A stretch of 64,000 nt of DNA, taken from positions 1,191,001-1,255,000 of the forward strand of contig NZ_CP060204.1 of NCBI RefSeq assembly GCF_014250475.1, in the 5' to 3' direction. The translations under genes and the position numbers were made by a program. This DNA is from Selenomonas timonae. Its GTDB lineage: Bacteria; Bacillota; Negativicutes; Selenomonadales; Selenomonadaceae. The notes under the pieces are model-generated. The model had not been told where the DNA came from. It worked only from the letters and a program-made list of their open reading frames with translations, and ran no database searches. Below are positions 41,567 to 57,077 of this stretch, in pieces (within the stretch, counting starts at the first letter, position 1; each line of letters opens with the position of its first letter).

Positions 41567-41736
41567 TATAGGAAGCACTGATAAATTCAGCTGCGCCATC
41601 TTAGCGCATCTTTTTTGCCCGCTTTTCGTTAGCAAATCCTCCACATAGCTTTGGCTATGCGTCCGGTTTGCTGCCTCAATCGGACGAAAAAATCTACGCC
41701 AATCTGACGGACTTCATTTTATCAGCGATTCCTATA
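41567..41736. mobile_element. 170-bp fold-back (MITE-like) element without a gene
   Basis: The two halves are imperfect inverted copies of each other over about 80 bases. The ends read TATAGGAAGCACTGATAAA and, from the other side, TATAGGAATCGCTGATAAA; the centre CATAGC...GCTATG closes the hairpin near 41651. It has no coding capacity. It lies between the ECF gene and a glycosyltransferase pseudogene whose 5' part is missing. Confidence 0.7.
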
Positions 41737-41767
41737 TGGGCGTTTGTATGCGGAGAAAGAGTGGAGT

Positions 41768-43128
41768 ATGAGGGAACAAGAAGCCGCACACAGTGGTTCA
41801 CAGAGAGAAGAAGCCGTTCGTCGGATTGTAGAACTTCGCTCACAGGGCTGCCGCCTTTATTATTTTGTGCCCGATTTTACTTCGGATGAAGGGCTGTGGC
41901 GCAGTGTATTCCGTTCCTACCTCCGTGCTTACTCCGCCGCAGATCAGACCGCTCTGATACTGATGTTGCCGGAGGGCGATGCCTCCGCAGAATTGGGCGA
42001 GATGCTTGAACTCCTTGCGGCACCCGGCGAAGATGCTCCGCTTGTGCTCGCACATCTATATTCGGATGCCTTTTTTATGCGGCCCTGCGGCAGGAGGACT
42101 GCCTGATTGCGGCAGCGGACGAGTTTTCTTCGCACTGCGCCCGTATTGCCGTTGGGATGGGCGCATCGGTCGTGCACGCAGCCGACTGGATGACGATTCA
42201 AAAGACGTATGATATCAGCGTATGTGTTGCGACATATCATCCTGATGATGAAATGCTTTTTGCGACGCTTACCTCGATCGTTCAGCAGCGGGGATGCAGC
42301 TTCGAGATTCTGGTAGGGGATGACGGTTCGGAGCATTTTGATGCGAAGCGTGTGGAACTGTGGTTTCTGCAGCATCGGTTTAAGAACTATACGATTTTCC
42401 ACAGTGCAGAGAATCAGGGGACTGTCCGAAATTATATGAATATGTACATCCATGCCGGTAGACACTATATTAAGAACCTATCTCCGGGAGACTTCCTCTA
42501 CGGCGATCATGTTCTGGCAGATATGATGCAGTTCATGAAGAAGAACGGCTATCAATTTGCATTCGGACGTTCTTGTAATTATCGTAAGGAAAATAATAGA
42601 TATGTCATTGTGGATCGCATGAACGCCCATTATTTGCGCCCGTACCAAGAGGGGACTTTTTCTGCGGTCAAGGAGGCGTATCTCGTCTGTCAGGATTATG
42701 CGGTTGGTGCGGCCTTCCTTGTTGAGCGAGAATTGATGATCTCCTATACAAGGGATATCGTCGGTCATGTGACCTACATGGAAGACTGTGTTCATATTAT
42801 GATGGTCGCAGATGATATTCCACTCGGATTCTGGGATCATAATTTTATCTGGTATGAGTGTGAGACCGGGATTTCCGGCGGTCCGTCACAGGAGTGGATC
42901 GAGCGTCTGGGACGGGATCATTGTACTGTCCTCATGATGATCGCGCAGCGGCATCCCGAACCGCGGGAATTGTGCACGTAGCATGTCGGTGGACGAAAGC
43001 CGTCGGATTTACCCTATATGAAGATTATGGAGGCATACTATGCTGAGATGGGACGCGCGAGAGAAAGAGTGTCCTACCTGCAAAATGTCGATCCGAACTA
43101 GTTGAAAAAACTAGTGTATGGGGAAGTT
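41768..43128 (+). pseudogene. Decayed glycosyltransferase gene (middle module + GT2), paralogue of the gene at 55146
   Basis: The reading starts at ATG 41768 with the middle module (GCRLYYFVPDFTSDEGLWRS), shifts frame at a six-T run (42071-42076), and resumes with the GT2 domain (YDISVCVATYHPDDEM, VGDDGSEHF, FWDHNFIWYECETGISGG). An in-frame TAG at 42979-42981 replaces a codon inside the conserved tail, and a second TAG lies at 43099-43101; homology to the intact paralogue continues past both. The N-terminal acetyltransferase part present in that paralogue is absent. One added T in the run would join the first two pieces, so phase variation was possible once, but the two stops argue for decay. 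Confidence 0.85.
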
Positions 43129-43166
43129 TCATTTGCATTGGGTGGGAATCCCATAGAAGGTAATTC

Positions 43167-44470
43167 GGCTCTACTCCCGAAGTAGTGGAAATGGTATAAT
43201 CGTCTAGGGTGATGACAAATGGTCGAGAATTTTGACAAGATGCTCGCAGGATCACTGCGTCTAGAGGCTCCATGGTATATCATAGGCGCAGAATTTAACG
43301 AGGAAGAGCCGGCAATCCATATACATGTGGGCGTAGACAAGACGGCTGCATTGTGCTGTCTTGTCTGCGGTGCACCGATCAAACGGTACGGCTACGAGCC
43401 GAAGGAACGTATCTGGCGTCATGCGGACTGCCTGTTATGTCCACTGCAAGCGTCCCCGTGTTCTGTGCGACAAATGCGGCACAGTGCAGGTCAATGCGCC
43501 GTTTGAGCGCAAGAACAGTCGCTTTACCCTGCTGTTCGAAGGCTACGCCATGCTACTCTTGCAAGACATTCCTCGTGCCGGAGCCTCCCATCTGCTTCGC
43601 TGTGACGAAAAGTCGCTCGCCGCTATCCTTACGTATTGGGTGCATGACGCGGTAAATCGTATGGATCTTTCCGATACCTGCTCCATCGCCATGGATGAGA
43701 CAACCTTTCGGCGTGGGCACAAATACGTCACCGTCGCAGTAAGGCGCCGTGTCTTCGATGTCGAACCTGGTCGCGACAAAACGGCGGCCAAAAACGTGGG
43801 CGAAAAACTGGAGAGGAACGGTGGCAACACGAAGAGCGTCAATTCTCTCACCAGCGACATGTCCGCAAGCTACCTGTCCGCCGTCCGAGAAGTGTTTCCG
43901 AACGCCAAACAGACCATCGACAAATTTCACGTCAAACAGGTGCCACTCAAAGCCTTGGATACGGTGCGTAAGGATGAGCAAAAAGAGTCCGGTCGGAAAA
44001 AGGAGCTGTTCCTGTGCCGCAAACTGTTCATGGTGCCGCAAGGACGCATGACCGACAAGCAACGGACAATGGCAACGGAACTTTCCAAGCAGTACAAGAA
44101 GACGGGACGTGCCTTTCGGATTGTCCAGTCTCTGGATGACTTCTATGCCTCGACCTCCATGGATGAGGCGCAGACGCGACTGGACAAGTTGTGTTCATGG
44201 ATGCGACGATGCCGACTGAAACCGATGAAGGATGCCGCCTTGACGCTCAGGAATCACAGCAAAGAAATACGGAACTATTTTCATACGCGTCTGACGAACG
44301 CGATTTGCGAAGGAATCAACGCGATGATTCAAGCAGCGAAGCGCAAGGCAAGAGGTTTTCATGCCTTTGAAGGCTATGCCGCAATGATCTACTTGGTTGC
44401 AGGAAAGTTGGAATTAGATACACCTGTTCTATTGTGGAAATAGCTTTTCCACTGGTTTTGGAGTAGAGCC
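43167..44470 (+). mobile_element. ISL3-family insertion sequence, about 1304 bp, disabled
   Basis: The ends match as inverted repeats: GGCTCTACTCC at 43167 and the same sequence inward from 44470, each followed about eight bases later by TGGAAA. Only one transposase gene is present and it is frameshifted. No 8-bp target duplication was found, which suggests that the left flank has been rearranged. Confidence 0.82.
43219..44443 (+). pseudogene. ISL3-family transposase, frameshifted
   Basis: The first piece (43219-43506) holds the start and the first zinc-finger half, CCLVCGAPIKRYGYEPKERI. The second piece (in frame from about 43430 to 44443) continues with CKRPRVLCDKCGTVQVNAP, the DDE domain (SIAMDETTFRRGHKY, TSDMSASYLSAV, AICEGINAMIQAAKRKARGF) and the end. 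The frame changes near 43425-43440 within RHADC; one extra base would restore a single protein of about 410 residues. ISL3 transposases are normally one open frame, so this is a broken copy. Confidence 0.85.
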
Positions 44471-44642
44471 AAAAAAACTCGTTATCACAAAGGACGAGTT
44501 TGCGGAGAATTTGGCGAAGATCCTGCGCGAGAATCGATCGGACTATCCCATCCGGGTATTCGATGTCGATCTGCGTGTTCAGGAGGTTCTGTACGCGCAG
44601 CTCTGGGAACAGGCAAAGTGGGAAGAAGCAGATCACGAGTAG
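44471..44642 (+). pseudogene. Gene fragment downstream of the ISL3 element
   Basis: An open stretch of about 55 codons without a start begins right at the IS end (KKLVITKDEFAENL) and stops at TAG 44640-44642. The sequence before the IS also encodes LKKLV, so this may be the displaced 3' end of the same glycosyltransferase gene. I recognise no domain in it. The remaining 50 bases up to the next gene hold only its ribosome-binding site. Confidence 0.5.
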
Positions 44643-44691
44643 CTTTATCGGAGGAAGTTATCATACCTTTTAGAACGGATGGGAGTGCAGT

Positions 44692-45105
44692 ATGCAGATT
44701 GTAAAATATATGTTTCAGCCGCATGGCGACGAGCGCGGCATGCTTGTCGCACTGGAGGAGTTCAACGACATTCCCTTCCGCATCAAGCGCGTCTACTATA
44801 TGTATGATACGGTGGAGGGCGTTGTACGCGGACATCATGCCCACAAGGCACTCGAGCAGATTCTGATTTGCATTCACGGGAGCTGTAAGGTTCGTCTTGA
44901 TAACGGACGAGAGAAGAAAGTTATTCCTCTCGAAAAACCCTATGAAGGGCTTTATATCTCTCATGCCATGTGGCGGGAGATGTACGACTTCTCGCCCGAT
45001 GCTGTCCTCATGGTGCTTGCCTCTGAGGTCTATGACGAGTCTGACTATATACGCGATTACGATGAGTTTCTGCGGATGGTGCGCGTGGGGGAGGCGCAGG
45101 CATGA
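44692..45105 (+). CDS. fdtA: dTDP-4-keto-6-deoxyglucose 3,4-ketoisomerase (FdtA/QdtA-like)
   Basis: The product has 137 residues, a single cupin of the WxcM family. [11 protein letters not shown] carries the catalytic histidines and [22 protein letters not shown] is typical of the C-terminal half. It moves the keto group of a dTDP-sugar from C4 to C3. The next gene, overlapping by ATGA, is the matching aminotransferase, giving a 3-amino-3,6-dideoxyhexose. FdtA and QdtA differ in C4 stereochemistry; I cannot tell which applies. It is the first intact gene of the glycan cluster. Confidence 0.85.
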
Positions 45106-46199
45106 ATATTAACCTTGCTGTGCTTGGCCGTCAGTATGACCTTCATGCCACAGAATACGAGGAGGCAGCGCTGCGTTCCCTGCGCTCCGGCTGGTATATT
45201 ATGGGGCCTGAGCTGGAGGCATTTGAGCAGGAATTTGCTGCCTATACAGGGGCGTGCTATGCCGTCGGACTGAACTCGGGGCTTGACGCGCTCACACTCT
45301 CTGCTGCTGCGCTTGGCATCGGTGTAGGGGATGAGGTTATCGTTCCCGCGAATACCTATATCGCGACAGTGCTTGCCGTCACGGCAAATGGGGCGATGCC
45401 TGTCTTTGTTGAGCCGGATGCGTATTATAACATTGATGCCGAACGGCTCGAAGATGCTGTCACAGTGCACACGCGCGCGATTATGCCTGTTCACCTTTAT
45501 GGACAGGCGGTCAATATGAAGCCCGTCATGGAGATCGCACGGCGGCATCATCTCGCCGTGATCGAGGACTGTGCCCAGTCCCACGGCGCACATTTCGGCG
45601 GAACGATGACGGGACGATTTGGCGATATTGGCTGTTTCAGCTTCTACCCGACGAAGAATCTCGGCGCATTCGGTGATGCGGGGGCAATCGTGACCGACGA
45701 TGCCGCGCTCGTGGAGAAGATTCGCATGCTCCGTAACTACGGCAGCAAGGAAAAATATCACAACGAAATATGCGGCGTCAATTCCCGCCTGGATGAGATA
45801 CACGCGGCTCTTTTGCGTGTCAAACTGGGGCATTTGCCGGAGCTGATTGAGGAGCGAAAGAAAATCGCCTCGCAGTACATGGTGGGTATTTGCAATCCAC
45901 ACATTGTGCTGCCTGAGACGCGGAACGGGGCTGAGCATGTCTACCACCAGTTCGTTGTGCGTACGGCAGCACGGGATCATTTCAAGGACTACCTTGCGGA
46001 AAACGGCATCGAGACGGTCATACACTATCCGATTCCGCCGCATCTGGCGGAGTGCTATGTGAACCTCGGGTACGGGCACGGCAGTTTCCCCGTGGCGGAG
46101 CGCTATGCGGATGAGGTGGTGAGCCTGCCGATGTTCAATGGAATGCGGGCAGATGAGATCGCCTATGTGATTGATACAGTCAACAGTTATTGTCCATGA
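45102..46199 (+). CDS. fdtB: Sugar-nucleotide 3-aminotransferase (FdtB/QdtB-like, DegT family)
   Basis: The product has 365 residues, full length for the DegT/DnrJ/EryC1 family. The PLP Lys is in [21 protein letters not shown] and EDCAQSHGA bind the cofactor and phosphate. It transfers an amino group from glutamate to the C3 keto-sugar made by the preceding isomerase. The ATGA overlap with fdtA supports a joint function. Confidence 0.88.
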
Positions 46200-46217
46200 C
46201 CCTTGAAAGGTGAAGCT

Positions 46218-46793
46218 ATGCGAGATCTTCGACTCGAAGGACAAAATGTGTATTTGGCGGAAGTGGAGGAGCAATACTTTCCGTATATTATTGCGTGGCG
46301 TAACGATCCTTTGAACAATCGCTATCTGAATCAGCCTTTTCTTCTTGATATGGAAAAACAGCGGGCATGGTATGAACGCTACCTGTCTGATTCTGCACAG
46401 GGGCTTCTCGTTGTCGTGGACAAGCAGATGGATACCCCGTTCGCTACGATGGGGTGGACAGATCACGATATCGAGGAAAGAGTCTGTATTACGGGGCGCC
46501 TCCTTGTCGGTGATCGTCGCTATCGCGGCAGTACGCTCTTTGCGGAGGCAACAGTTCTCTTTGCGGACTATATGTACGGGTCATTTGGTGTTGACGCCTG
46601 CTATGCGCATATTGTATGTGAAAATTTGCCCTCCATTCGCTATCATGAGAAGTATGGGTTTTGTCGGAATGATGGCATTCCCCGATTCCCAAATGAACTT
46701 ATCGTTAATGGTATGCGGCAAGAGGAGTATGTTCGGTTACAAGAGAATTGGCAGGCGGTGCGTCCAAGTTTGCTGGAGCGGCTTGGTTTCTGA
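46218..46793 (+). CDS. GNAT acetyltransferase, likely for an amino-sugar nucleotide
   Basis: From ATG 46218 (GAAAGGTGAAG upstream) the product has 191 residues in the GNAT fold. WRNDPLNNRYLNQ near 25 and CENLPSIRYHEKYGF near 140 resemble PseH/RimJ-like sugar N-acetyltransferases. It lies directly after the 3-aminotransferase, so N-acetylation of the new amino group is plausible, although the classical FdtC enzyme has a different beta-helix fold. Its C-terminal segment EEYVRLQENWQAVRPSLLERL recurs in a 34-residue reading frame at 53968. Confidence 0.8.
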   Translation: MRDLRLEGQNVYLAEVEEQYFPYIIAWRNDPLNNRYLNQPFLLDMEKQRAWYERYLSDSAQGLLVVVDKQMDTPFATMGWTDHDIEERVCITGRLLVGDRRYRGSTLFAEATVLFADYMYGSFGVDACYAHIVCENLPSIRYHEKYGFCRNDGIPRFPNELIVNGMRQEEYVRLQENWQAVRPSLLERLGF

Positions 46794-46837
46794 TTGTTGC
46801 CGGATGGTTATATTCTTATTTGGAAAGAGGTATTCCC

Positions 46838-48055
46838 ATGGGAGAATTGAAGAATCCATCGAAGTATCTGGGGAATGAGCTGAAATATCTCAGCAAGGTG
46901 TTGGAAGGGACAGCATGGTCTGCCACGACGGGCAGTTTGGTGCATGGCTTGGAGGCTGCATTTGCAGAGAAGATCGGCGTGCGTTATGGTGTTGCGGCCA
47001 ATTCGGGTACATCGACGCTGCATATGGCACTTGAGGCAGTTGGTGTGGAGCCGGGGGATGAAGTGATCTCGCCTGCACTCACTGTCATTATGGATACGAC
47101 GGCGACCATTCATGCGAACGCAGTGCCTGTATACTGTGATGTGGATGAACACACCTTCCTTATGGATCCCGCTGATTTCGAGCGAAAGATTACGCCGAAG
47201 ACAAAGGCGGTCATTGTGGTATCGCTTTATGGGGCGTCGCCGGACTATGACCGCATTCTTTCGATTGCAAGGAAGCACAATATTGCCGTGATTGAGGATA
47301 ATGCACAGGCGGTTCTCAGCACATATCACGGGAAAACGCTCGGCACCTTCGGCGATCTTGCGAGCTTCAGCTTCGAAAACTCCAAGCATATCTCCTGTGG
47401 TGAGGGCGGTATGATCATCACAGATTCTGAGATCTATGCAAAGATTGCGCGAAAATTGGGTGGGCATGGCTTCAAGAATTTGGAAGCCGATGAGGGGCGC
47501 GTTCGCTATACGAATAAGGAGATGTTCCAAAATCCTATGTATAAGCGGCATGATGCGCTCGGATGGAACTATCGTATGCCAGAGTTTACCGCAGCGGTTG
47601 CGCTCGCTCAGCTCGAGCGGGTAGAGGAGCTCGTCACTCTTCGGCAGAAGACAGCGGAAATCTTTATGGATGTGATGTCCGAATGCGACTACATGATCCC
47701 ACAGGGGAATCTGCCGGATACTGTGAACTCCTACTATGCGCTTGGCGTTCTCTATGAGGGCGAGGATGCGATCGGTATTCCTTGGGCAGAGCTCCGTAAG
47801 ACCTATGTGGAGATGGGCGGCGATGGTTTCTATGGCGCTTGGAGTGTGCCCTATCTCGAACCAGTCATGGCAGAACGTACCTTTGTGAAGCGGATGCCGC
47901 AGATCTACGGGGGAATCTCCTATGAGCAGGGTCTTTGCCCCGTGGCAGAGCGCATTCAGCCGAAGATCATGCAGTTCAAGACGAACTATCGTGATCTCGA
48001 ATTGGCGAAGGAGAAGGCAGAGGTTCTGCGCCGACTGATCCGAAAGTATCGTTGA
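46838..48055 (+). CDS. DegT/DnrJ/EryC1 aminotransferase, second copy (SpsC-like)
   Basis: From ATG 46838 the product has 405 residues. GVAANSGTSTLHMALEAVG, VIEDNAQAV and the PLP Lys in FENSKHISCGEGG define the family. It is clearly different from the aminotransferase just before it: longer, with an extra C-terminal segment. In the Bacillus spore-coat polysaccharide operon a DegT protein (SpsC) accompanies the NeuB-like SpsE and the cytidylyltransferase-like SpsF; homologues of both occur further down here. Confidence 0.85.
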   Translation: MGELKNPSKYLGNELKYLSKVLEGTAWSATTGSLVHGLEAAFAEKIGVRYGVAANSGTSTLHMALEAVGVEPGDEVISPALTVIMDTTATIHANAVPVYCDVDEHTFLMDPADFERKITPKTKAVIVVSLYGASPDYDRILSIARKHNIAVIEDNAQAVLSTYHGKTLGTFGDLASFSFENSKHISCGEGGMIITDSEIYAKIARKLGGHGFKNLEADEGRVRYTNKEMFQNPMYKRHDALGWNYRMPEFTAAVALAQLERVEELVTLRQKTAEIFMDVMSECDYMIPQGNLPDTVNSYYALGVLYEGEDAIGIPWAELRKTYVEMGGDGFYGAWSVPYLEPVMAERTFVKRMPQIYGGISYEQGLCPVAERIQPKIMQFKTNYRDLELAKEKAEVLRRLIRKYR

Positions 48056-48074
48056 GCATATTGAGGGAGAGCAA

Positions 48075-49160
48075 ATGCTGGATATTGATTTTTACATGAA
48101 GTTTGACACTGTGTATGAGCAGCTGCAGCAAGGGCAGTTTACAGATCGTCAGCAGCTGTTCGATGCGTTGGAGGCGATTCGCAGTCGAACACCGATTGTC
48201 TACAACATTGAGACAACGAACAAATGCAATATGCGCTGCGAGATGTGCCCTCGTACGACTATGATGACGCGACGCATCGAGGATATTGACCACGACACTT
48301 TTATTTCTGCCGTTCGTCAGCTTCGCCCGCATACACCGGAACTCTGGACGCGATGGAAAAGATTCTGCGAGGAGAAGTATCATATCGCAGAGGATGACCT
48401 GCCAAGTGAAAACCATTTCTTCCTGTATATCATATCCAAGGTAATCCAGCTGCATGGTTATGGTGATCCTCTGCTGGATAAGCATATGGCGGAGTATGTT
48501 CAGATCCTCACGGATCATGGGTTCCCGACCTATTTCAGCTGCAATCCGGCGAATATCGATATGGAGGCTACCTATCGGATGCTCAATGCGGGTCTCAGCT
48601 ATATCAAGTATTCGATCGAGAGCGTGGATGATGCTGTCTACAAAAAAGTTCGCGGCAGTGCGGCAAATTTCTCATCAAGTTACAAAAATATATTGAAGAT
48701 CCTTGACTATAAGCATGTACACGGGCTTTCGACGGTGATTGTCATTACAATGCTCGATCTCAACCGTAGGGATCAGGCGGAGGAGTATGAAAAACTCCGT
48801 CAGGCGTTTGACGGATTGGATGTCTATCTTTATCTAAAGAGTGAGGACTGCCAGTGGTATCGTCAGGATTATCATGGGACAAAATCCATTCATTGGAGTG
48901 AACCCTGCAAGCATCCATGGATGACGATGACGATCAAGTCCAATGGAGAAGCAACCATGTGCATGGAGGATTTCAACAATGAGATTATCTTTGGGGATGT
49001 GAATCAAGAGTCTCTGTATGACATCTGGAACGGTGAGCGCTATCGGGCATTCCGCTTACAGCATATCGATGTGGCAGAGGGAATCAAGTGCAAACATGAA
49101 TGCGATATGAAGCTCGTTGGGGAATTCCTGTGCAGTAATGAGATAAGAATGAGCTCATAA
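48075..49160 (+). CDS. Radical SAM/SPASM protein of the glycan cluster
   Basis: The product has 361 residues. The 4Fe-4S-SAM motif is CNMRCEMC in ETTNKCNMRCEMCPRT near 48-60. C-terminal cysteines in EPCKHPW, TMCMEDF and IKCKHECDM form an auxiliary SPASM-type cluster. Such proteins in sugar clusters catalyse radical dehydration, epimerisation or C-C chemistry on a nucleotide sugar. The substrate is unknown. An insertion of about 40 residues (TPELWTRWKRFCEEKYH onwards) follows the first strand. Confidence 0.82.
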   Translation: MLDIDFYMKFDTVYEQLQQGQFTDRQQLFDALEAIRSRTPIVYNIETTNKCNMRCEMCPRTTMMTRRIEDIDHDTFISAVRQLRPHTPELWTRWKRFCEEKYHIAEDDLPSENHFFLYIISKVIQLHGYGDPLLDKHMAEYVQILTDHGFPTYFSCNPANIDMEATYRMLNAGLSYIKYSIESVDDAVYKKVRGSAANFSSSYKNILKILDYKHVHGLSTVIVITMLDLNRRDQAEEYEKLRQAFDGLDVYLYLKSEDCQWYRQDYHGTKSIHWSEPCKHPWMTMTIKSNGEATMCMEDFNNEIIFGDVNQESLYDIWNGERYRAFRLQHIDVAEGIKCKHECDMKLVGEFLCSNEIRMSS

Positions 49161-49171
49161 GGGAAAGCAGT

Positions 49172-49648
49172 ATGAATGTAGAAAAAATCAGGCTGTTCAT
49201 CTCGGATGTGGACGGTACGCTGACCGACGCGGGCATGTACTACGATGAACGCGGAAACGAATGGAAGAAATTCAATACGCGCGACGGGAAGGGGCTTTCC
49301 TTCCTTCGTGCCAAGGGCATCAAGACCATGTTTCTGACGGCAGAGGATACGCCGATTGTTGCGCGGCGGGCAGAAAAGCTGAAGGTAGACTTCGTATATA
49401 TGGGCATCACGGATAAGCTGGCTTTTCTGGAAGCTTTTTTCGCACAGCATCCGGCATTCAGCTTTGCGACAACGGCCTATATCGGTGATGATGTCAACGA
49501 TGTTCCTGCAATGAAGCGCGTGGGAATATCGGCTGCACCTGCCGACGCTATGCCGGAGAATACACAGGTGGCTGACTATGTCTGCCATCTGCCGGGCGGC
49601 AGGGGCTGTGTGCGGGAGTTCTGTGACTATCTGCTGCATAGTGACTGA
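49172..49648 (+). CDS. KdsC-like HAD phosphatase
   Basis: The product has 158 residues, the size of KdsC. The HAD motifs are FISDVDGTLTDAGMYY, LTAEDT and YIGDDVNDVPAM. KdsC-type enzymes remove the phosphate from 3-deoxy-ulosonate phosphates. A NeuB-like synthase follows after 29 bases, so the pair could make and dephosphorylate a ulosonic acid. The active-site residues are intact. Confidence 0.85.
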   Translation: MNVEKIRLFISDVDGTLTDAGMYYDERGNEWKKFNTRDGKGLSFLRAKGIKTMFLTAEDTPIVARRAEKLKVDFVYMGITDKLAFLEAFFAQHPAFSFATTAYIGDDVNDVPAMKRVGISAAPADAMPENTQVADYVCHLPGGRGCVREFCDYLLHSD

Positions 49649-49677
49649 GGGATACTGAATATAGGGAGGTTTTGCTT

Positions 49678-50550
49678 ATGATGGAGATTTGTCTCGGAGA
49701 CTACATTCTCAATGAGGAGTCTGAGCCCTATTTTATTGCGGAGATCGGGATCAACCACAACGGTGATTTGCAGATTGCAAAGAAGCTGGTGGATGGCGCA
49801 TATGCGGCAGGATGGAATGCGGTGAAGTTCCAAAAGCGTGAGCCGGATATCGCCGTTCCGGAGCATCAGAAAGGTGTGATGCGTGATACACCGTGGGGGC
49901 GCATGACGTATCTGGAGTATAAAAAGCGTGTCGAGTTTGGCAAGACAGAGTATGACTATATCGACCACTACTGTAGGGAGAAGCCTCTGGATTGGTCGGC
50001 ATCGCCGTGGGATATGCCGAGCCTCGAGTTTTTGCTCACATATGATATTCCGTTCATCAAAATAGCATCGGCGAGCATCACACAGGATGGACTCTTGAAG
50101 GCGGTGGCCAAGTCCGGCAAACCTGTCATCATGTCAACGGGCATGAGTACGTGGGAAGAGCTGGATCATGCCGTGAACATTTTGGAGCAGCACTGCCAGA
50201 ACGGCTATGTCCTGATGCATACGAACTCCACCTATCCTGCTCCAGAAAATGAACTTAATCTGAGCATGATTCAGACACTCAAGGATCGCTATCACTGCAT
50301 CGTGGGGTACAGCGGGCATGAGCGTGCGCTCGAACCGACCGTTGTTGCCTTGGTGTTGGGCGCGCAGGTCATCGAGCGGCACATTACTCTGGATCATGAG
50401 ATGTGGGGCACTGACCAGGCGGCGAGCTTGACGCTCCATGCGATGGATATGCTTCGCCGCAGAGCAAAGGGGCTGCGCGCCATGATCGGAAATGGAGAGC
50501 GGATGCTGAGCGAATCTGAGCTGAATGTGCGTAAGAAGCTGCGCGGGTAA
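49678..50550 (+). CDS. NeuB/SpsE-like ulosonic acid synthase without SAF domain
   Basis: From ATG 49678 (GGGAGG upstream) the product has 290 residues. YFIAEIGINHNGDLQIAKKL, WNAVKFQKREP, IKIASASI and IERHITLDHEMWGTDQAAS are the barrel motifs of sialic, legionaminic and pseudaminic acid synthases, which condense phosphoenolpyruvate with a hexosamine. Family members usually have about 340-370 residues and end in a SAF (antifreeze-like) domain that helps close the partner active site; here the protein stops at the point where that domain should begin. Confidence 0.85.
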   Translation: MMEICLGDYILNEESEPYFIAEIGINHNGDLQIAKKLVDGAYAAGWNAVKFQKREPDIAVPEHQKGVMRDTPWGRMTYLEYKKRVEFGKTEYDYIDHYCREKPLDWSASPWDMPSLEFLLTYDIPFIKIASASITQDGLLKAVAKSGKPVIMSTGMSTWEELDHAVNILEQHCQNGYVLMHTNSTYPAPENELNLSMIQTLKDRYHCIVGYSGHERALEPTVVALVLGAQVIERHITLDHEMWGTDQAASLTLHAMDMLRRRAKGLRAMIGNGERMLSESELNVRKKLRG

Positions 50551-50591
50551 ATTCTGTTTCATGCGCAGGCGAGCAGAAGGGGGCATATCTG

Positions 50592-51461
50592 TTGAAGTTG
50601 GAACGATGTTTCTTATGCGGTGCACAGGAAGCTCAAAAAATCCACCATGGCGTTCGTGGGAGTGCGACGACGGATGTGCTGAAATGCGCTGAATGTGGGC
50701 TGGTACGTCTCAGCGAAACAGTGGATGATGTAGAGGCATTCTATGCTTCCTCGGGGATGCGCGTGGATGAAACCAATGATTTGGAAAAGATTCGTCTTGC
50801 CTCGAGAGCAGATGATGAACGCCGCTTTCGCTATACAGAGCGGATGATTGAGGGAAAAAACGTCATTGATTTCGGCTGTGGAGACGGAGGCTATTTGACG
50901 CATGCAGCGCGTGTTGCAGCCTCTGTCACTGGTGTGGAGCTTGAGGAGGCGATGCGCAAGGCTCTGACAGTAGAGGGGCTGTGTTGTTTTGCCTCAATTC
51001 AGGAGGTTGGAACGGCGGATGTTATCACCTTGTTCCATGTATTGGAGCATTTGGAAGATCCTATTTCCTATCTTGAGGAATTCCGCAGTCACTTGAGTCC
51101 CGAGGGTATGATTATCATCGAGGTGCCAAATGCGGATGATGCACTACTGAGCTTATATCAATGTGAGGCATTTGCCGATTTCACCTATTGGATCTGTCAC
51201 ATCTATCTGTATACACTTTCGACCCTCCGACTGCTTGTGGAAAAGGCGGATTATGAGGTCGTGTTTATGCGGCAGATTCAGCGCTACTCCTTGGCAAATC
51301 ATCTGCATTGGCTGTCAAAAGGGCAGCCGGGCGGGCATTACAAATGGGCGTTTCTGGAGGATTCTGAAACAGACAACACATACGGCAATATGTTGACGCG
51401 GTTGGGGATTGCCGACACAATCATTGCGGGGATTCGTCCTCGTTCAGGGAGTTTTGTGTGA
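50592..51461 (+). CDS. SAM-dependent methyltransferase with N-terminal zinc ribbon
   Basis: The product has 289 residues: an N-terminal ribbon with CFLCG and CAECG cysteine pairs (about 6-37), then a Methyltransf_23 domain with VIDFGCGDGGYL and TLFHVLEHLEDP. Such proteins are frequent in surface-glycan clusters and often methylate sugars, or act as C-methyltransferases when they carry the zinc ribbon. TTG 50592 is chosen as the start because AAGGGGG precedes it and the first Cys pair begins at residue 6. Confidence 0.82.
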   Translation: MKLERCFLCGAQEAQKIHHGVRGSATTDVLKCAECGLVRLSETVDDVEAFYASSGMRVDETNDLEKIRLASRADDERRFRYTERMIEGKNVIDFGCGDGGYLTHAARVAASVTGVELEEAMRKALTVEGLCCFASIQEVGTADVITLFHVLEHLEDPISYLEEFRSHLSPEGMIIIEVPNADDALLSLYQCEAFADFTYWICHIYLYTLSTLRLLVEKADYEVVFMRQIQRYSLANHLHWLSKGQPGGHYKWAFLEDSETDNTYGNMLTRLGIADTIIAGIRPRSGSFV

Positions 51462-51476
51462 AGGACGGAAGAGAAT

Positions 51477-53168
51477 ATGAATATTGCTGATTTGGTCGAG
51501 GAAGGCAGACTATATGATGCCTTGATCCTCACGGCCGGATTGATTGATAAATCAGAGCGTGAAGAAATGGATATAGGGGCTCTGATTGACGCTTACCGTC
51601 TTTGTCATACCAAGGAAGCGGATCCTTATTTGCTGGATATGATCAAAGTCGGCGTTCTCAAGATCCTCTGTAATGTCATGCAGAAAAACATGAAAGTGGC
51701 CGACCTGATGAAACTTGTCGAGGTCATCTCTGCATCTGACAATCATAGGACAGCGGCATCAACTTTTGAGGAATATCTGTCTACACTCCTGTACCATGCA
51801 GCAGATTCTATGCATAGGAGTGGAAATGCAGAGATCGCCTATCATTGCCTGAGTGCAATCGCGTCGCTTCAGGTTCCTGTTCGCAGCGCGTATATTTTGC
51901 TTGAAAATGAGTTGAAAGGGAATCTGCAAATACAGACGCCTTTTTCTGCCTTTACGAGTGGAGCGAGACGGACGCAGAATCTTGAGCAGCCCATTATCCC
52001 GACATCTGCTCGTCCGTATGACTATCTGGGCATGAAGGAACGGCGCCTCCGCGTTGATGTTCTGCTTGAATTTTCGGTGGTTTGGTGTAAGGTCAAAAGC
52101 CTTTATGAAGCGATGGCAAAGGACGCATCCTTTGATTGCCGCATTGTGGCGATCGATATGCAGGAGCCTGCATGGGACAGTACGACAGAGTATCCCGCAT
52201 TTCTTCAGTTCCTCAATGCGCGTGATATTCCATTCGTGCCGGAGGCTTCTTATGATTTCGCAGAACGCAGGCCAGATGTGCTCATCTATACGAACCCTTA
52301 CGACTGGCACCATCCCAGGTTTGCGATAGAGCGTGTTCGGCAGCAGGGAATCCTGGTCGTATATCTGCCGTACTCTATTCCTTTCTTTGTTGATGTCAAT
52401 AACCAGGCCTCTCTTTATGATCGACCAATCCATCGGCAGGCATGGCGGATCTATGTGCGCTCACAGCGTGAACGACGTAAATACGGTATGTATTGTCAGG
52501 CGGGGAATGCACATGTTGAGATTACAGGTGCTCCTGTCGTTGACTATCTAGCAGAGCAGCGGACACTTATCAAGCCAAATTCCGATTTCAAAAAGACCTT
52601 TCTTTGGGGCGTTGACTATGGCTTTCAAAATCGCACGGCAACGTTTGGTGAATACGGTGAGGATCTTCTTAAATATTTTATAGAGCATCCTCAGTTTGCT
52701 TTGATTGTCCGTCCACACCCTTTATTTTATGGTATGGTTACTAAACTTGGAGTCATGAGCGAAGCTGCTGTTCGGGCTTTTTATGAGCAATGTAAGACTG
52801 CGCCGAATATATTCTTGGATCTCGATGGGGAGCTGACAGAGGCTTTTTGCAAATCGGATGCATTGATTTCGGATATTTCCTCGATTCTAGTGGAGTATTT
52901 GACAATGGGACGGCCTGTTTTATATCTGAACACGGAAAATACGCCGAATTACAAAGAGTATCATGAGGATGATTCCGATGTGCTGGCACATTATTATTCG
53001 GGGGACTCGTTTGACCATATCGTGCAGTTTATAGAAATGGTGGTTGCCGACAAAGATCCCCTGCGCGAGGAGCGCGAAGAGATTCTTGAGAAGTATTTTT
53101 ATCGGCATCAGGAGAATGCAGGTGAGCGGATTAAGGATATGCTGAAGGATTCTCTCAAGAATCTATGA
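51477..53168 (+). CDS. CDP-glycerol glycerophosphotransferase-like protein (TagB/TagF class)
   Basis: The product has 563 residues. The C-terminal 370 residues match the GT-B fold of teichoic acid glycerophosphotransferases, with LIVRPHPLFYG and SDALISDISSILVEYLTMGRPVLYL as landmarks. The first 175 residues are helical, look like tetratricopeptide-type repeats and are not part of the usual family. It may transfer a polyol phosphate or sugar to the surface glycan, but in a diderm the acceptor is unclear. Confidence 0.78.
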   Translation: MNIADLVEEGRLYDALILTAGLIDKSEREEMDIGALIDAYRLCHTKEADPYLLDMIKVGVLKILCNVMQKNMKVADLMKLVEVISASDNHRTAASTFEEYLSTLLYHAADSMHRSGNAEIAYHCLSAIASLQVPVRSAYILLENELKGNLQIQTPFSAFTSGARRTQNLEQPIIPTSARPYDYLGMKERRLRVDVLLEFSVVWCKVKSLYEAMAKDASFDCRIVAIDMQEPAWDSTTEYPAFLQFLNARDIPFVPEASYDFAERRPDVLIYTNPYDWHHPRFAIERVRQQGILVVYLPYSIPFFVDVNNQASLYDRPIHRQAWRIYVRSQRERRKYGMYCQAGNAHVEITGAPVVDYLAEQRTLIKPNSDFKKTFLWGVDYGFQNRTATFGEYGEDLLKYFIEHPQFALIVRPHPLFYGMVTKLGVMSEAAVRAFYEQCKTAPNIFLDLDGELTEAFCKSDALISDISSILVEYLTMGRPVLYLNTENTPNYKEYHEDDSDVLAHYYSGDSFDHIVQFIEMVVADKDPLREEREEILEKYFYRHQENAGERIKDMLKDSLKNL

Positions 53169-53197
53169 AAAAGGCTTGGATTGAGGAGATGGCTTAG

Positions 53198-53956
53198 ATG
53201 AAAAAAGCATTGTTCATTACCGTAAGAAAGGATTCCAGCAGACTGCCCAATAAGACCATTCGTCGGATACTGGGTCGTACCGTACTGGAGTTGGTTGTTA
53301 AACGGGCGCAGCAGGCAAAAAATTTCGACTATGTTGTCGTATGCACAACAACGCGCCCCATTGATGACGAGGTTGCGGTGGTTGCCCATGAAAACGGTGC
53401 GGACGTATTCCGCGGCGACTTCAAGGATAAACTCGTGCGTTGGCGGGACGCGGCACGTCAGTTCTCAATCGACTACGTCGTTACTTTCGATGGGGACGAT
53501 CTGTTCTGTGAGCCGCACCTTCTTGATATGGGCGCAGAGCAGATTGCAGCGCGTGGACTTGACTTCATCGAGGCACCGGAAGGGCTGATCTGCGGAGCAT
53601 TTACCTATGCATTTACGGTGAAGGCGCTCGAAAAGGTGTGCGAGATCAAGGCATCGGACGATACGGAGATGATGTGGACCTATTTCAAGGATACGGGACT
53701 TTTCAAGGTGGGTATCCTAGAAAATGTAGCGCCCGTGTATTTCAACAATGAAATCCGTATGACATTGGACTATCCCGAGGATTTTGAATTCTTTACGAGG
53801 ATATTTGAGCACTTCGACTGCGTGGAGAATGATGTTCCACTCGAGAAAATCGTCGCATACCTAAACGAACATCCGGAAATCCCGCAGATCAACATTCATC
53901 GTCAGCAGGAGTTCTTGGATAATCAGAAGAAGAAAACACATTTAATTCTGCGTTGA
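53198..53956 (+). CDS. SpsF-like cytidylyltransferase (CMP-sugar synthetase family)
   Basis: The product has 252 residues. The N-terminal ALFITVRKDSSRLPNKTIR is the CTP-binding signature of CMP-Kdo and CMP-sialate synthetases; VTFDGDDLFCEP carries the metal-binding Asp residues. With the NeuB-like synthase and KdsC-like phosphatase in the same cluster, it probably activates the product as a CMP-sugar. Together with the SpsC- and SpsE-like genes it recalls the Bacillus sps operon. Confidence 0.85.
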   Translation: MKKALFITVRKDSSRLPNKTIRRILGRTVLELVVKRAQQAKNFDYVVVCTTTRPIDDEVAVVAHENGADVFRGDFKDKLVRWRDAARQFSIDYVVTFDGDDLFCEPHLLDMGAEQIAARGLDFIEAPEGLICGAFTYAFTVKALEKVCEIKASDDTEMMWTYFKDTGLFKVGILENVAPVYFNNEIRMTLDYPEDFEFFTRIFEHFDCVENDVPLEKIVAYLNEHPEIPQINIHRQQEFLDNQKKKTHLILR

Positions 53957-54081: not shown

Positions 54082-55122
54082 ATGGATATTAAAGTGAGGC
54101 TTGATGGCAGAGAAGCATCTGTTCGCAAGATATTCACAGAGAACGGGACGACCTTGTTAACGGCAGGATATCGCTCCTACTTGGTAGACGGGACTATTAG
54201 AGGAGTGGGCGATGCAGCACATGTTCTGATTGGTTCTTACTCATCTCTAGGGCCACGTATGACATTCCTCTTCCAGGAATCATTCGGATCATCCTATGCA
54301 AGCGGCTTTGCAGGCACTGAGACGGAAAACAATCCAATGGCAGCTCCTGTACGAAGCTGTGGCTCTCAGGTGATTATCGGCAGTGATGTCTGGATCGGCT
54401 GTGATGTGACCATTCATGGAGGAGTATATATCGGAAATGGGGCTGTGGTTGGTGCAGGGGCGGTTGTCACAGAGAATGTTCCGCCGTATACTGTTGTCGT
54501 CGGCAACCCTGTGCGCGTCATTAAGAAGCGATTCGATGCGGAGACAATAGCACGGCTTCAGCACATCAAGTGGTGGTATTGGCCTGCAGAGCAAATCCAG
54601 CAGCATATTTCACTATTGTTGGGTGATGTTGGTACATTTATTGCACGGTTTTCTGCATCGGAGGAGCAGATCCCTTCGGAGCCCTTTTTAGAGAGTCTTA
54701 TTGAGTTTAAGAAAAGGGGGTATATACTTTATTATTTCATACCTGATTTTGAATCCGAGGAGGCAATCTGGCGTAACGTCTTCCGAGACTACTTAGGAGC
54801 CTATACGGTGACAGATCATACTGCGCTGCTCCTCGCGCTGCCTGATGATACGCCGGAGGCTTTTCTTACAGAACTCAGCAGCATGCTTGCAGAGGCAGGA
54901 GAAGATGCCCCTCTTGTTATGACATGTTGCGCAAATACAGTGGGAATAGCATCTATATGGTCTCATATGGATTCTTTTATTACAACGAAAGAGCCTATAT
55001 CTTCCGTGTATGCGGACTATGCGGCAGACAGCGGCGTAAATATTGTCTATGGGCTTGCGCCAAGGGAGCGTATCTTTCCGGCACTGCGGGAGAATGCGGC
55101 ATCCCAAATGCAGATTGTGTGA
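54082..55122 (+). CDS. Left-handed beta-helix acetyltransferase fused to an unnamed module
   Basis: The product has 346 residues. Residues about 1-170 form a hexapeptide-repeat acetyltransferase of the CatB/Vat type ([44 protein letters not shown]). Residues about 205-335 form a separate module ([49 protein letters not shown]) that also occurs in the next gene and in the pseudogene at 41768. The protein lacks the GT2 domain that follows this module in the next gene. It probably O- or N-acetylates a sugar of the glycan; the second module is unexplained but looks like part of a GT-B glycosyltransferase. Confidence 0.75.
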
Positions 55123-55145
55123 TGTTTTGATCGGGGGAGTAGGTC

Positions 55146-57077
55146 GTGTTTATTCAGGTCAGTCTTGAGCGAGCTGCAGAGACTCGTATGCTGCATCAGG
55201 ACGGCAGGGGCTTCATGACCGTAGGCGCCGGTTCCTATGTGGCGGACGGGATCATTGAGCATGGCAGTCAGCGGCTGCACGTACTTGTTGGACGATACTC
55301 TTCTTTGACGGGGCATGTCCTGTTTGAGATCGGGATGAACCATGACTATCATCGGACTGCAGCCTATCCATTTGAGGAGTTTTTTTATACCGATGGGATA
55401 TCGAATCATGCCTTCCATGTCAATAACAATCAGATCATTATCGGGCATGATGTAAAAATCGGCGAGGATGTCATCATTCTTGGGGGCGTTCATATTGGCA
55501 GCGGAGCAATTGTCCGTTCGGGCGCTGTTGTTGCAAAGGACATTCCGCCCTATGCCATCGTTGAGGGGAATCCCGCTCAGGTTACAGGATACCGGTATGA
55601 TGAAGAAACGATTGAGCGGCTTTTGAATATTCAATGGTGGAACTGGCCAGAGGAAAAGATACAAGAGTGTGAGCAGTCTCTGCAAAACAATGCGAAAGCG
55701 TTTGCAGAACAATTCTCTGCAGCAGATAATGTTGCACAGCCCGATGAGATCGGACAGGCGCTTGCATCGTTGAGAGAGCAGGGATACGTTATTTATTACT
55801 TGGTAGCGGATTTTACAGCGCATGAAAGTATATGGCGAAAGGTGCTCCTGGATTATTTGTCGGCGTATACTGCTGATCGTCCGTCCGACCTCCTCGTTGA
55901 AATTTCCAAGGAAGGTTTTTCGACAGAGCGTCAAGAGCTTCTCTCATTGCTCTCCATGTGTCATACGGATGCGCCACTGGTGCAGATATACACATCTGAG
56001 AATTCTTCATTCCACATGCTTGAGATGGTAGATTTCCTCATCACGACGAGGGAAGAAATCTCTGCTGCATATGCGGATTATGCTCTTCGTTCCGGCGTGA
56101 AGATGGTCTACGGGGGGGATGTGAGGGAGCGTCTCTTTCATCCACCAAGAGAATACGATATAAGCGTTGGCGTTATGACCTACCGGTCGGATTATGACCA
56201 GCTGTATACGACACTGTACTCCATCATTTGCCAGCAGGGTTGCTCCTATGAAATTGTCATCGGAGATGATGGAACACAGGACTTCCGGCAGGAGGAGATT
56301 GAACTCTGGATGCTGCGCCATGGCTTTCGTAACTATATGATTGTGCGCAGCCCGGAGAATAAGGGGATAGTGCAGAATGCAATGAGCATCCTTCATTCGA
56401 TGCGCGGGCGCTATGTGAAGATGATCTCGCCGGGGGACTACTTATATGATGATCGTGTTCTCTCTCGTATGATGGACTTCATGAAAACGGAAGGGTGGCA
56501 AATTGCCTTTGGGCGCAGTTGTTTCTATGCTAAGGAGGAGGACACATATCGCATCTTTGACCGCATGCAGCCTTTTCAGCTAAAATCCTATAAAGAGCGA
56601 GACTATGATGCGGTAAAGCAGGCCTATCTTGTTTGTCAGGACTATGTAGTTGGTGCCGCATTTATGGGGGAGCGTGGCCTTGTAACAGCCTACACAGAGC
56701 TGATCTATGGTCGGGTGGTATATGCAGAGGATTCGGCATACGTCATTATGGCTGCCGATGACATTCGCTTCGGGTTTTGGGATCACAACCTTATATGGTA
56801 TGAGTGCGGGACGGGGATATCGGGCGGAAAATCTGAGCAGTGGAAGGCGCGTCTTTGGCATGACAATCTGGCAACGCTCGCTATTATTGCAGAGCGTCAT
56901 ACAGAACTAAGAGACCTCTGCCACTGGCACGCAGAGGGACGACCTTCTAATTCTCCGTACGCTGAGATTGTCACGAGCTACTATGCGGAGGTGGATCGGA
57001 TACTCGAGACCGAGACCTATTTGCAGGATGTTGACCCTCGTGAACTGCAAAAACTGATGGAACGTAATATACTATGA
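55146..57077 (+). CDS. Trimodular protein: beta-helix acetyltransferase + unnamed module + GT2
   Basis: From GTG 55146 the product has 643 residues. Residues 1-190 form a hexapeptide acetyltransferase (IIIGHDVKIGEDVIILGG, PPYAIVEGNPAQV). Residues about 205-345 form the same middle module as in the preceding gene (GYVIYYLVADFTAHESIWRK, FLITTREEISAAYADYALRSG). Residues about 350-600 form a GT2 domain (YDISVGVMTYRSDY, VIGDDGTQDF, KMISPGDYLYDDRV). The chain would acetylate and transfer sugars in one protein. It is the last gene of the cluster and ends before convergent terminators. The GTG start follows GGGGGAG. Confidence 0.82.
   Translation: MFIQVSLERAAETRMLHQDGRGFMTVGAGSYVADGIIEHGSQRLHVLVGRYSSLTGHVLFEIGMNHDYHRTAAYPFEEFFYTDGISNHAFHVNNNQIIIGHDVKIGEDVIILGGVHIGSGAIVRSGAVVAKDIPPYAIVEGNPAQVTGYRYDEETIERLLNIQWWNWPEEKIQECEQSLQNNAKAFAEQFSAADNVAQPDEIGQALASLREQGYVIYYLVADFTAHESIWRKVLLDYLSAYTADRPSDLLVEISKEGFSTERQELLSLLSMCHTDAPLVQIYTSENSSFHMLEMVDFLITTREEISAAYADYALRSGVKMVYGGDVRERLFHPPREYDISVGVMTYRSDYDQLYTTLYSIICQQGCSYEIVIGDDGTQDFRQEEIELWMLRHGFRNYMIVRSPENKGIVQNAMSILHSMRGRYVKMISPGDYLYDDRVLSRMMDFMKTEGWQIAFGRSCFYAKEEDTYRIFDRMQPFQLKSYKERDYDAVKQAYLVCQDYVVGAAFMGERGLVTAYTELIYGRVVYAEDSAYVIMAADDIRFGFWDHNLIWYECGTGISGGKSEQWKARLWHDNLATLAIIAERHTELRDLCHWHAEGRPSNSPYAEIVTSYYAEVDRILETETYLQDVDPRELQKLMERNIL

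Follow-up and report, generated by a model that had tools for sequence, protein, structure and literature searches.

Genes A and B and their modules

In this study, two adjacent and co-directional open reading frames (ORFs), genes A and B, were analyzed in a 64,000-nt stretch of the Selenomonas timonae chromosome (contig NZ_CP060204.1, positions 1,191,001 to 1,255,000; hereafter the window). The product of gene A has an acetyltransferase (AT) domain followed by a middle module, here called M, and that of gene B has AT, M and a family 2 glycosyltransferase (GT2) domain (Table 1). This build had been proposed in an earlier note made from the sequence alone, and the ORFs, the Pfam matches and the alignment of A with B all agree with it. 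Pfam scanning detected Hexapep in A and B and Glycos_transf_2 in B, where PF00535 scored 38.2 bits against a cut-off of 23.3, assigning the domain to GT2; no family was found in stretch M of either protein, and no solved relative of the GT2 domain of B was found by sequence at E 0.01. The alignment of A with B spanned AT and M (337 aa, 38% identity, E 2e-70). A third copy, in a pseudogene near 41.7 kb, was 49% identical to A across 82 aa of M and 50% identical to B across 349 aa, so that the proposed sequence kinship of the M copies holds. At this 38% identity, A and B are old paralogs.

The counterpart of the A-B pair in Selenomonas sp. FOBRC6 was 95% identical in DNA across the 2,045 bp present. 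There, the counterpart of B is spread over two contigs, with the M part 94% and the GT2 part (locus L068) 99% identical. A fourth copy in the S. timonae genome, an AT-M gene with a 351-aa frame (L012:8350-9366), lies outside the window at approximately 538.4-539.4 kb of the 2.35-Mb chromosome. In a scan of 10 ORFs at this place, itself included, no other glycan gene was recognised; the neighbours that were recognised are PALP, AAA, RpiR/SIS and ROK genes.

Table 1. Features of the window and loci with G tracts at the AT-M junction
Feature	Position	Strand	Remarks
Gene A	54082..55122	+	346 aa, AT-M, without GT2; FOBRC6 counterpart in L124, 91% identical
AT domain of A	54154..54651	+	Profile match; left-handed beta-helix of the XAT type; Phe in place of the His of most relatives
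Module M of A	54703..55056	+	Profile match, alignment, fold in model of whole A
Gene B	55146..57077	+	643 aa, AT-M-GT2
AT domain of B	55212..55715	+	NH motif kept
Module M of B	55761..56120	+	Profile match; AlphaFold model; GT-B C-domain matches
GT2 domain of B	56151..57062	+	PF00535, E 1.8e-9; profile match
Module M of pseudogene	41831..42186	+	Profile matches at 41831-42073 and 42076-42186, in two frames
GT2 part of pseudogene	42208..42975	+	PF00535, E 2.8e-9; in-frame stop after it
ISL3-family transposase	43361..44443	+	PF01610, E 1.1e-59; within former M-GT2-GT4-like gene
Remaining tail of former M-GT2-GT4-like gene	44470..44676	+	90% identical to L129 8675-8873; beyond ISL3 element
Genes for sugar nucleotides and glycans, from one M place to the other	44692..53956	+	Pfam
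Junction G8-G13 tracts, sister genus	L087, L090, L093, L095, L096, L099, L104, L109, L114, L115, L118, L121, L122, L178		

Family status and distribution of M

Profile searches of Pfam and NCBIfam placed M in no named family, as the name "unnamed module" in the earlier note had implied. In NCBIfam, A and B matched distantly related hexapeptide families, led by Vat and CatB, far under their cut-offs. No credible relative emerged when the PDB was searched by sequence with the M profile (best E 0.11), the PHROGs search gave a single hit to M of B at E 0.025, and the plasmid search gave no match to M. Among the papers listed, from a literature largely without subscription papers, no title or opening of an abstract described the module. 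We regard M as a real, undescribed module shared among these proteins.

A two-row profile detected M in 63 of the 189 genomes of the family Selenomonadaceae; a 47-row profile raised this to 69 of the 189, belonging to 10 of 30 genera. Across the phylum, the two-row profile found M in this family only (3 of 299 genomes), and the 47-row profile matched 12 of 398 genomes, including 4 of the family, 2 outside it with convincing AT-M proteins (G564, E 1.8e-20; G232, E 6.6e-14) and 6 with weak matches (E 2.6e-5 to 8.3e-4). Scanning of named genomes with a narrow pattern gave 8 loci, all in Selenomonas (sp. FOBRC6, noxia, massiliensis, sp. F0473, infelix and artemidis). The protein family to which A and B belong would be centred on Selenomonadaceae.

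The proposal that one module occurs in several combinations was confirmed by the survey: the 111 M-bearing ORFs in the loci read comprised AT-M (68), M without a recognised partner (14), AT-M-GT2 (12), M-GT2 (8), AT-M-GTB (7) and M-GTB (2), where GTB denotes a long C-terminal part without GT2. The figures refer to ORFs and not to genes: contig ends truncate some of them, several with M only represent one half of a split gene, and the pseudogene of the window was counted twice. Five GTB parts were scanned; those of L013 and L044 were weakly similar to glycosyltransferase (GT) families GT1/GT4, and those of L033, L041 and L180 were not recognised.

Predicted fold of M

AlphaFold modelled M of B alone with a mean predicted local distance difference test (pLDDT) value of 77.9 and a predicted template-modelling (pTM) score of 0.77, in the strand-helix order of a Rossmann fold. 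In the model of whole A, the M part reached 80-93 in several blocks; the AT part was poor (mean pLDDT 63), and no AT-M interface is claimed. SPY and the C domain of glycogen synthase stood further down the Foldseek list for M. Upon realignment, the 50 entries shown were mostly C-terminal halves of GT-B proteins, with Z values of 8.9-10.8 across 114-138 residues, on a scale where the tool itself warns that a best Z of 7-8 is common without true kinship. They included Cps3D, trehalose-phosphate synthases, MGD1, Asp1, SpnG, WaaG and UDP-GlcNAc 2-epimerases. Donor binding in GT-B enzymes is a function of the C-terminal domain (PMC12809243).

Comparison of the M profile with 30 GT4 C-domains of relatives placed 81 columns in register (P 0.0012). 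Five of the six weak distant matches in the phylum were scanned; 3 lay inside PF13692 and 2 in GT2-bearing proteins outside the listed domains. The spacing of the GT4 motif EX7E is present in M with E303 (68/102) and D311 (85/102), and TT(R/K)E-x7-D stands opposite the EX7E region of GT4. The idea that the module is half of a GT-B fold is thus supported by the superposition of its predicted structure on GT-B C-domains and, weakly but in register, by the sequence. Upstream of M only AT or a short stretch is present, so that the second Rossmann half is absent and M is not a complete GT-B glycosyltransferase. We read M, from the model, as a probable lone C-terminal (donor-side) half of a GT-B fold with a kept but altered ligand site.

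Other results speak against this assignment. The first Foldseek matches to M were pantothenate synthetases and universal stress proteins (Usp), with E values near 1e-3, and not GT-B proteins. The hhalign probability for M versus GT4 was just 19%, and a control comparison of an unrelated Usp with GT4 itself gave P 0.037 over 18 columns. Searching 47 M members against Pfam matched 18 families at E 0.1, all as single weak hits, with neither PF13692 nor PF00534 among them. In the global alignment M has Asp at the position of the GT4 Arg. In GT4 enzymes this Arg is the donor-phosphate binder, and roles are ascribed to EX7E and to the Arg/Lys. Kinship of M with Usp was also considered and dropped, as the profile comparison was negative (P 0.15).

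Taken as a whole, M resembles the GT4/GT-B C-terminal domain (PF13692, PF00534) in predicted fold and in the weak in-register match, and differs from it in having no N-terminal half, in the Asp for Arg and in the lack of any Pfam GT match in the 47 members. It also matches structurally the C-terminal region of Asp1 (accessory secretion protein 1; 5vaf and 6lnw, Z 10.1 and 9.3). Asp1 has a whole GT-B-like body without known transferase activity and acts beside an acetyltransferase in adhesin export, whereas M is a half only and is fused to AT or GT. Sugar acetyltransferases of the PglD/NeuD type combine a small N-terminal Rossmann-like domain that binds sugar nucleotide with a left-handed beta-helix AT. 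By this description they likewise pair a Rossmann-like part with AT; M is instead C-terminal, GT-B-like and common to GTs.

Conserved residues of M

The best kept polar residues of M (B numbering) are D222 (98/101), W230 (95/103), T300 (83/102), T301 (80/102), R/K302 (93/102), D311 and D325 (86/100). Each comes after strand 1, 4 or 5 or lies in the helix that succeeds it. The motifs that had been described as present in all copies survived in part: D222, W230 and T300/T301/R-K302 are mostly kept, whereas E-x-x-W-R is poorly held apart from its W (E 25/103, R 26/103). Within the window, ITT(K/R)E is present in A and B and is IAAAD in the pseudogene, and in B the first L of LYY is replaced by I.

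Two other readings of M bear on these residues. M might itself be an enzyme whose new active site has replaced the donor site of GT4, which would make AT-M bifunctional and AT-M-GT2 trifunctional; the clustering of the kept acids D222, D311 and D325 and of T-T-R/K on one edge would agree with this. We consider it quite unlikely: GT-B activity normally requires two halves, of which M has one, and no Pfam family beyond single weak hits was found in the 47 members. Alternatively, M could be a structural spacer or an oligomerisation part that fixes the distance between AT and GT and binds no sugar. This seems unlikely, if somewhat less so. The hydrophobic strand residues L249 (99/103) and I299 (88/102) are kept as well as the polar ones, the fused rows have M after AT and before GT, and M diverges faster than AT (13-29% identity for M in the 12 most extreme AT pairs, whose AT parts are 51-68% identical). 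As against these points, the kept polar residues cluster on one edge of the sheet, and often there is nothing for M to space because AT-M without GT is the commonest form (68/111 ORFs).

The acetyltransferase part

The nearest solved relatives of the AT domains were VatD and CatB-type enzymes, with streptogramin A acetyltransferase VatD (1khr) matched at E 1.6e-26 by A and 1.2e-25 by B. The hexapeptide repeats and the Vat/CatB homology class both as XAT-type hexapeptide proteins. Their NCBIfam scores for Vat were 108.6 and 100.8 bits (cut-off 300) and for CatB 101.6 and 95.4 (cut-off 350). A role in resistance to streptogramin or chloramphenicol was dropped, the scores being far under these cut-offs.

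The His of the NH motif is taken as catalytic in such enzymes. It is present in B and is replaced by Phe in A and its FOBRC6 counterpart. A may thus be no acetyltransferase at all because Phe replaces His, and B may be one. Among the family, His was kept in 60/64 AT-M rows (4 gap rows dropped) versus 9/18 GT-fused rows (1 dropped), the latter made up of 5/11 AT-M-GT2 and 4/7 AT-M-GTB. The suggestion that shuffling yields new acetyltransferases is therefore doubtful for many fused forms, because His is absent in 9 of the 18 GT-fused AT domains. Compared with the XAT enzymes VatD, CatB and ApmA, the AT domains match the VatD/CatB structures, and B has the NH motif; here M follows AT, and His is often absent in GT-fused forms.

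Change of partners between species

In the M tree (90 rows), presence of a GT partner changed 10 times, against a mean of 22.6 (18-26) with shuffled labels, a count in which some changes may be tree error and gain cannot be told from loss. GT partners are inherited yet often changed. In the 17-row GT2 tree, the approximately unbiased (AU) test rejected a single clade for AT-M-GT2 (p-AU 2.7e-4), for M-GT2 (1.1e-4), for GT2 without M (3.2e-4) and for all M-bearing rows (3.0e-4). Interspersed with the fused copies were GT2 copies that lack M and have open frames of 330-361 aa.

One chromosomal site, after a four-gene run that we take to be RsmE-TlpA-CcdA-QueT, was read in all 14 genomes of the genus (sense strand, 18 kb per genome, 9.4 kb in FOBRC6) and held differing M-bearing genes in 6. 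These were the broken M-GT2 gene in the window, M-GT2 in FOBRC6, M-GT2-GT4-like in S. infelix, AT-M-GT2 in G325, two AT-M-GT2 genes in S. noxia, and M-GT2 plus AT-M-GT2 with separate AT and GT2 genes in S. massiliensis. In the remaining 8 genomes no M gene was found in the stretch read after the run. In FOBRC6, the A-B pair comes directly after an ISL3 copy together with 116 bp that match the final part of the window's GNAT gene, and none of the seven window genes between GNAT and A was present there, contig ends limiting the wider order.

A DNA mosaic was observed in three related genomes of another genus (L094, L096, L109). Their flanks and M are mostly 79-98% identical, the AT-M linker dips to 61-74%, and approximately 350 bp of the AT domain falls to 42-68%. 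Synonymous divergence in these pairs, which are split genes picked after looking, was 0.27-0.37 for M and 0.87-1.39 for AT; the control pair L114/L118 gave 0.19 and 0.18. Replacement by recombination is the simplest reading of the sequences, and strong diversifying selection could also give such a pattern.

Overall, repeated change of module combinations between species is supported. The combinations could also be stages in the decay of old fusions that split and lose domains, without real exchange, and for this the window pseudogene (a decayed larger gene), the several M-only ORFs that are split-gene halves or contig-end cuts, the age of the paralogs A and B, and the blindness of the change counts to gain versus loss can be cited. 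Such a course is improbable in our judgement, as GT2 domains of one architecture form no clade, GT2 without M occurs in open frames among the fused ones, one site holds open genes of different build in different species, and the AT domain is mosaic in three genomes, subject to the selection caveat above.

Exchange by recombination was put forward as the cause of the combinations within the window; none was seen among its three copies. There it is not supported because A and B are paralogs at 38% identity, the pair has a counterpart in FOBRC6 and the pseudogene has one in S. infelix. Gene conversion acting locally on A, B and the pseudogene was also considered and dropped.

The pseudogene, the ISL3 element and the genes between

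The pseudogene has M followed by GT2, as had been described, with a frame change in M near 42075, inside or beside a T run. It originally had also a weakly GT4-like part and is interrupted by an ISL3 element. A 965-aa gene of S. infelix is 88.9% identical at its start in DNA to window positions 41733-43166, and its product contains M, GT2 and a GT4-like part under the Pfam cut-off (E 7.2e-4). The pseudogene GT2 is sister to that of S. infelix L059 in the GT2 tree, and approximately 1.3 kb of the former gene is absent from the window. On these matches the pseudogene is the broken counterpart of the S. infelix gene, formerly of three modules.

The ISL3 copies at window:43361-44443 and L124:3227-4176 are related (82-85% DNA identity), the FOBRC6 one standing immediately in front of the A-B pair. 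For the stretch from one M place of the window to the other, Pfam gave the order FdtA, DegT, GNAT, DegT, radical SAM/SPASM, HAD, NeuB, methyltransferase, Glyphos_transf and CTP_transf_3; the radical SAM/SPASM protein lies at window:48075-49160, between the DegT and HAD/NeuB genes. These genes suit pathways of the amino-sugar and nonulosonic-acid types, and hence some surface glycan.

G tracts at the AT-M junction in a sister genus

The most striking result is a G tract at the junction of AT and M in a sister genus (g220). Tracts of G8-G13 were present at this junction in 14 of the 47 M copies shown, at two different positions. The frames of AT and M differ in 8 of the 14 and are the same in 5; the remaining copy (L178) is in frame at the tract and has AT interrupted upstream. 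In 262 kb of g220 loci, 24 distinct tracts of G8 or longer were found, 14 of them at the AT-M junction (P 5e-22 versus uniform placement, shared descent ignored). The copies of the close relatives L114 (G10, in frame) and L118 (G12, out of frame) had pairwise ratios of nonsynonymous to synonymous divergence (dN/dS) of 0.26 for AT and 0.18 for M; in the pairs shown, the values for the two parts were 0.09-0.46, averaged over time. His is retained in the AT half of all 8 split genes, none of which is among the non-His rows shown.

Hallmarks of phase variation, namely a coding homopolymer, lengths differing among relatives and a consequence for the frame, were therefore found in g220 and not in the window. 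The tracts fit slippage that would attach and detach M, with live switching as a possible outcome. NeuO of the Escherichia coli K1 capsule is a phase-variable O-acetyltransferase whose coding sequence carries heptanucleotide repeats in its 5' region, so that the full-length protein depends on them (PMC13001214). The likeness is that repeat slippage switches a glycan acetyltransferase in NeuO and may do so in g220. The difference is that the g220 tract would switch the C-terminal M with AT staying in frame.

The tracts could instead have no switching role and reflect faulty assembly or the passive decay of genes that are dispensable. The g220 genomes are mostly draft (60-100% complete among M carriers), so that tract length may be misjudged; related copies share tracts by descent and are not independent cases; and G tracts are common throughout g220, where overlapping nine-G windows numbered 22-370 in 10 chosen genomes, compared with 6-13 in 4 genomes from the genus of the window and with 4 each in two others. 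The junction enrichment at two positions, the dN/dS values of both parts and the retention of His in all 8 split AT halves make this explanation highly doubtful.

Other tracts were also noted. A G10 at L180:2668-2677 lies directly after M, at the border to the C-terminal part of a 473-aa ORF, and is a second type of junction. Tracts of G9-G10 in similar context were seen at L093:5987, where a GT2-like ORF with an open start begins on the opposite strand, and at L116:5292; they perhaps mark further switchable genes of g220.

Proposed role of M

We give an even chance to the reading that M is the docking or specificity part of a family of glycan-modifying proteins with interchangeable modules, whose module sets recombine and in which poly-G switches M in the sister genus. 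This reading starts from the modules themselves, the predicted fold, the repeated change of partners and the tracts whose lengths differ across genomes. The building blocks would be an XAT-type acetyltransferase, M and an optional GT2 or GT-B/GT4-like part. In the model, the kept polar residues of M line the edge at which the nucleotide sugar is bound in GT-B enzymes. Because of this match M would most likely be a ligand-holding docking part, which would bind a sugar nucleotide or glycan and present it to the attached enzyme without being a complete transferase. AT would normally be intact in AT-M. This AT fold forms trimers, and the GT-fused AT, often without His, may serve as a trimeric scaffold. 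Module sets would be swapped by recombination at the variable glycan site, and in the sister genus slippage of the junction tract would switch the attachment of M.

Docking, named in the earlier note beside a carrier role, is the favoured putative role at about even odds. Several observations weigh against the whole proposal. The difference in His between AT-M and GT-fused forms (Fisher p 7e-5) is uncorrected for relatedness, and gene A lacks His though it has no GT. The M tree was made by a quick method from few columns, and 37 of its 99 inner branches are open. In 79 one-frame AT-M proteins, a set that left out split genes, no strong discordance between AT and M was found at the threshold used, and nearest neighbours agreed in 38. 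In 51 M copies from other genera, including the window, no junction run of at least six G was found, most of these genomes being draft.

A more specific form of the proposal, which we advance tentatively and hold to be rather less probable than its negation, is that this half-glycosyltransferase is an exchangeable recognition module switched by slippage. Recombination would pick the enzyme, and the G tract would decide cell by cell whether an intact AT carries M, so that the site or target of acetylation changes and the enzyme is kept.

For annotation, the results advise caution, since many GT-fused AT domains of the M family may be inactive as acetyltransferases. If the proposal is true, removal of M is predicted to alter the choice of acetyl acceptor, and tract length should predict the surface glycan. 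An undescribed accessory module would then be added to glycan biology, and bacteria would recombine, and perhaps switch, the specificity part of a glycan-modifying enzyme and not the whole enzyme.

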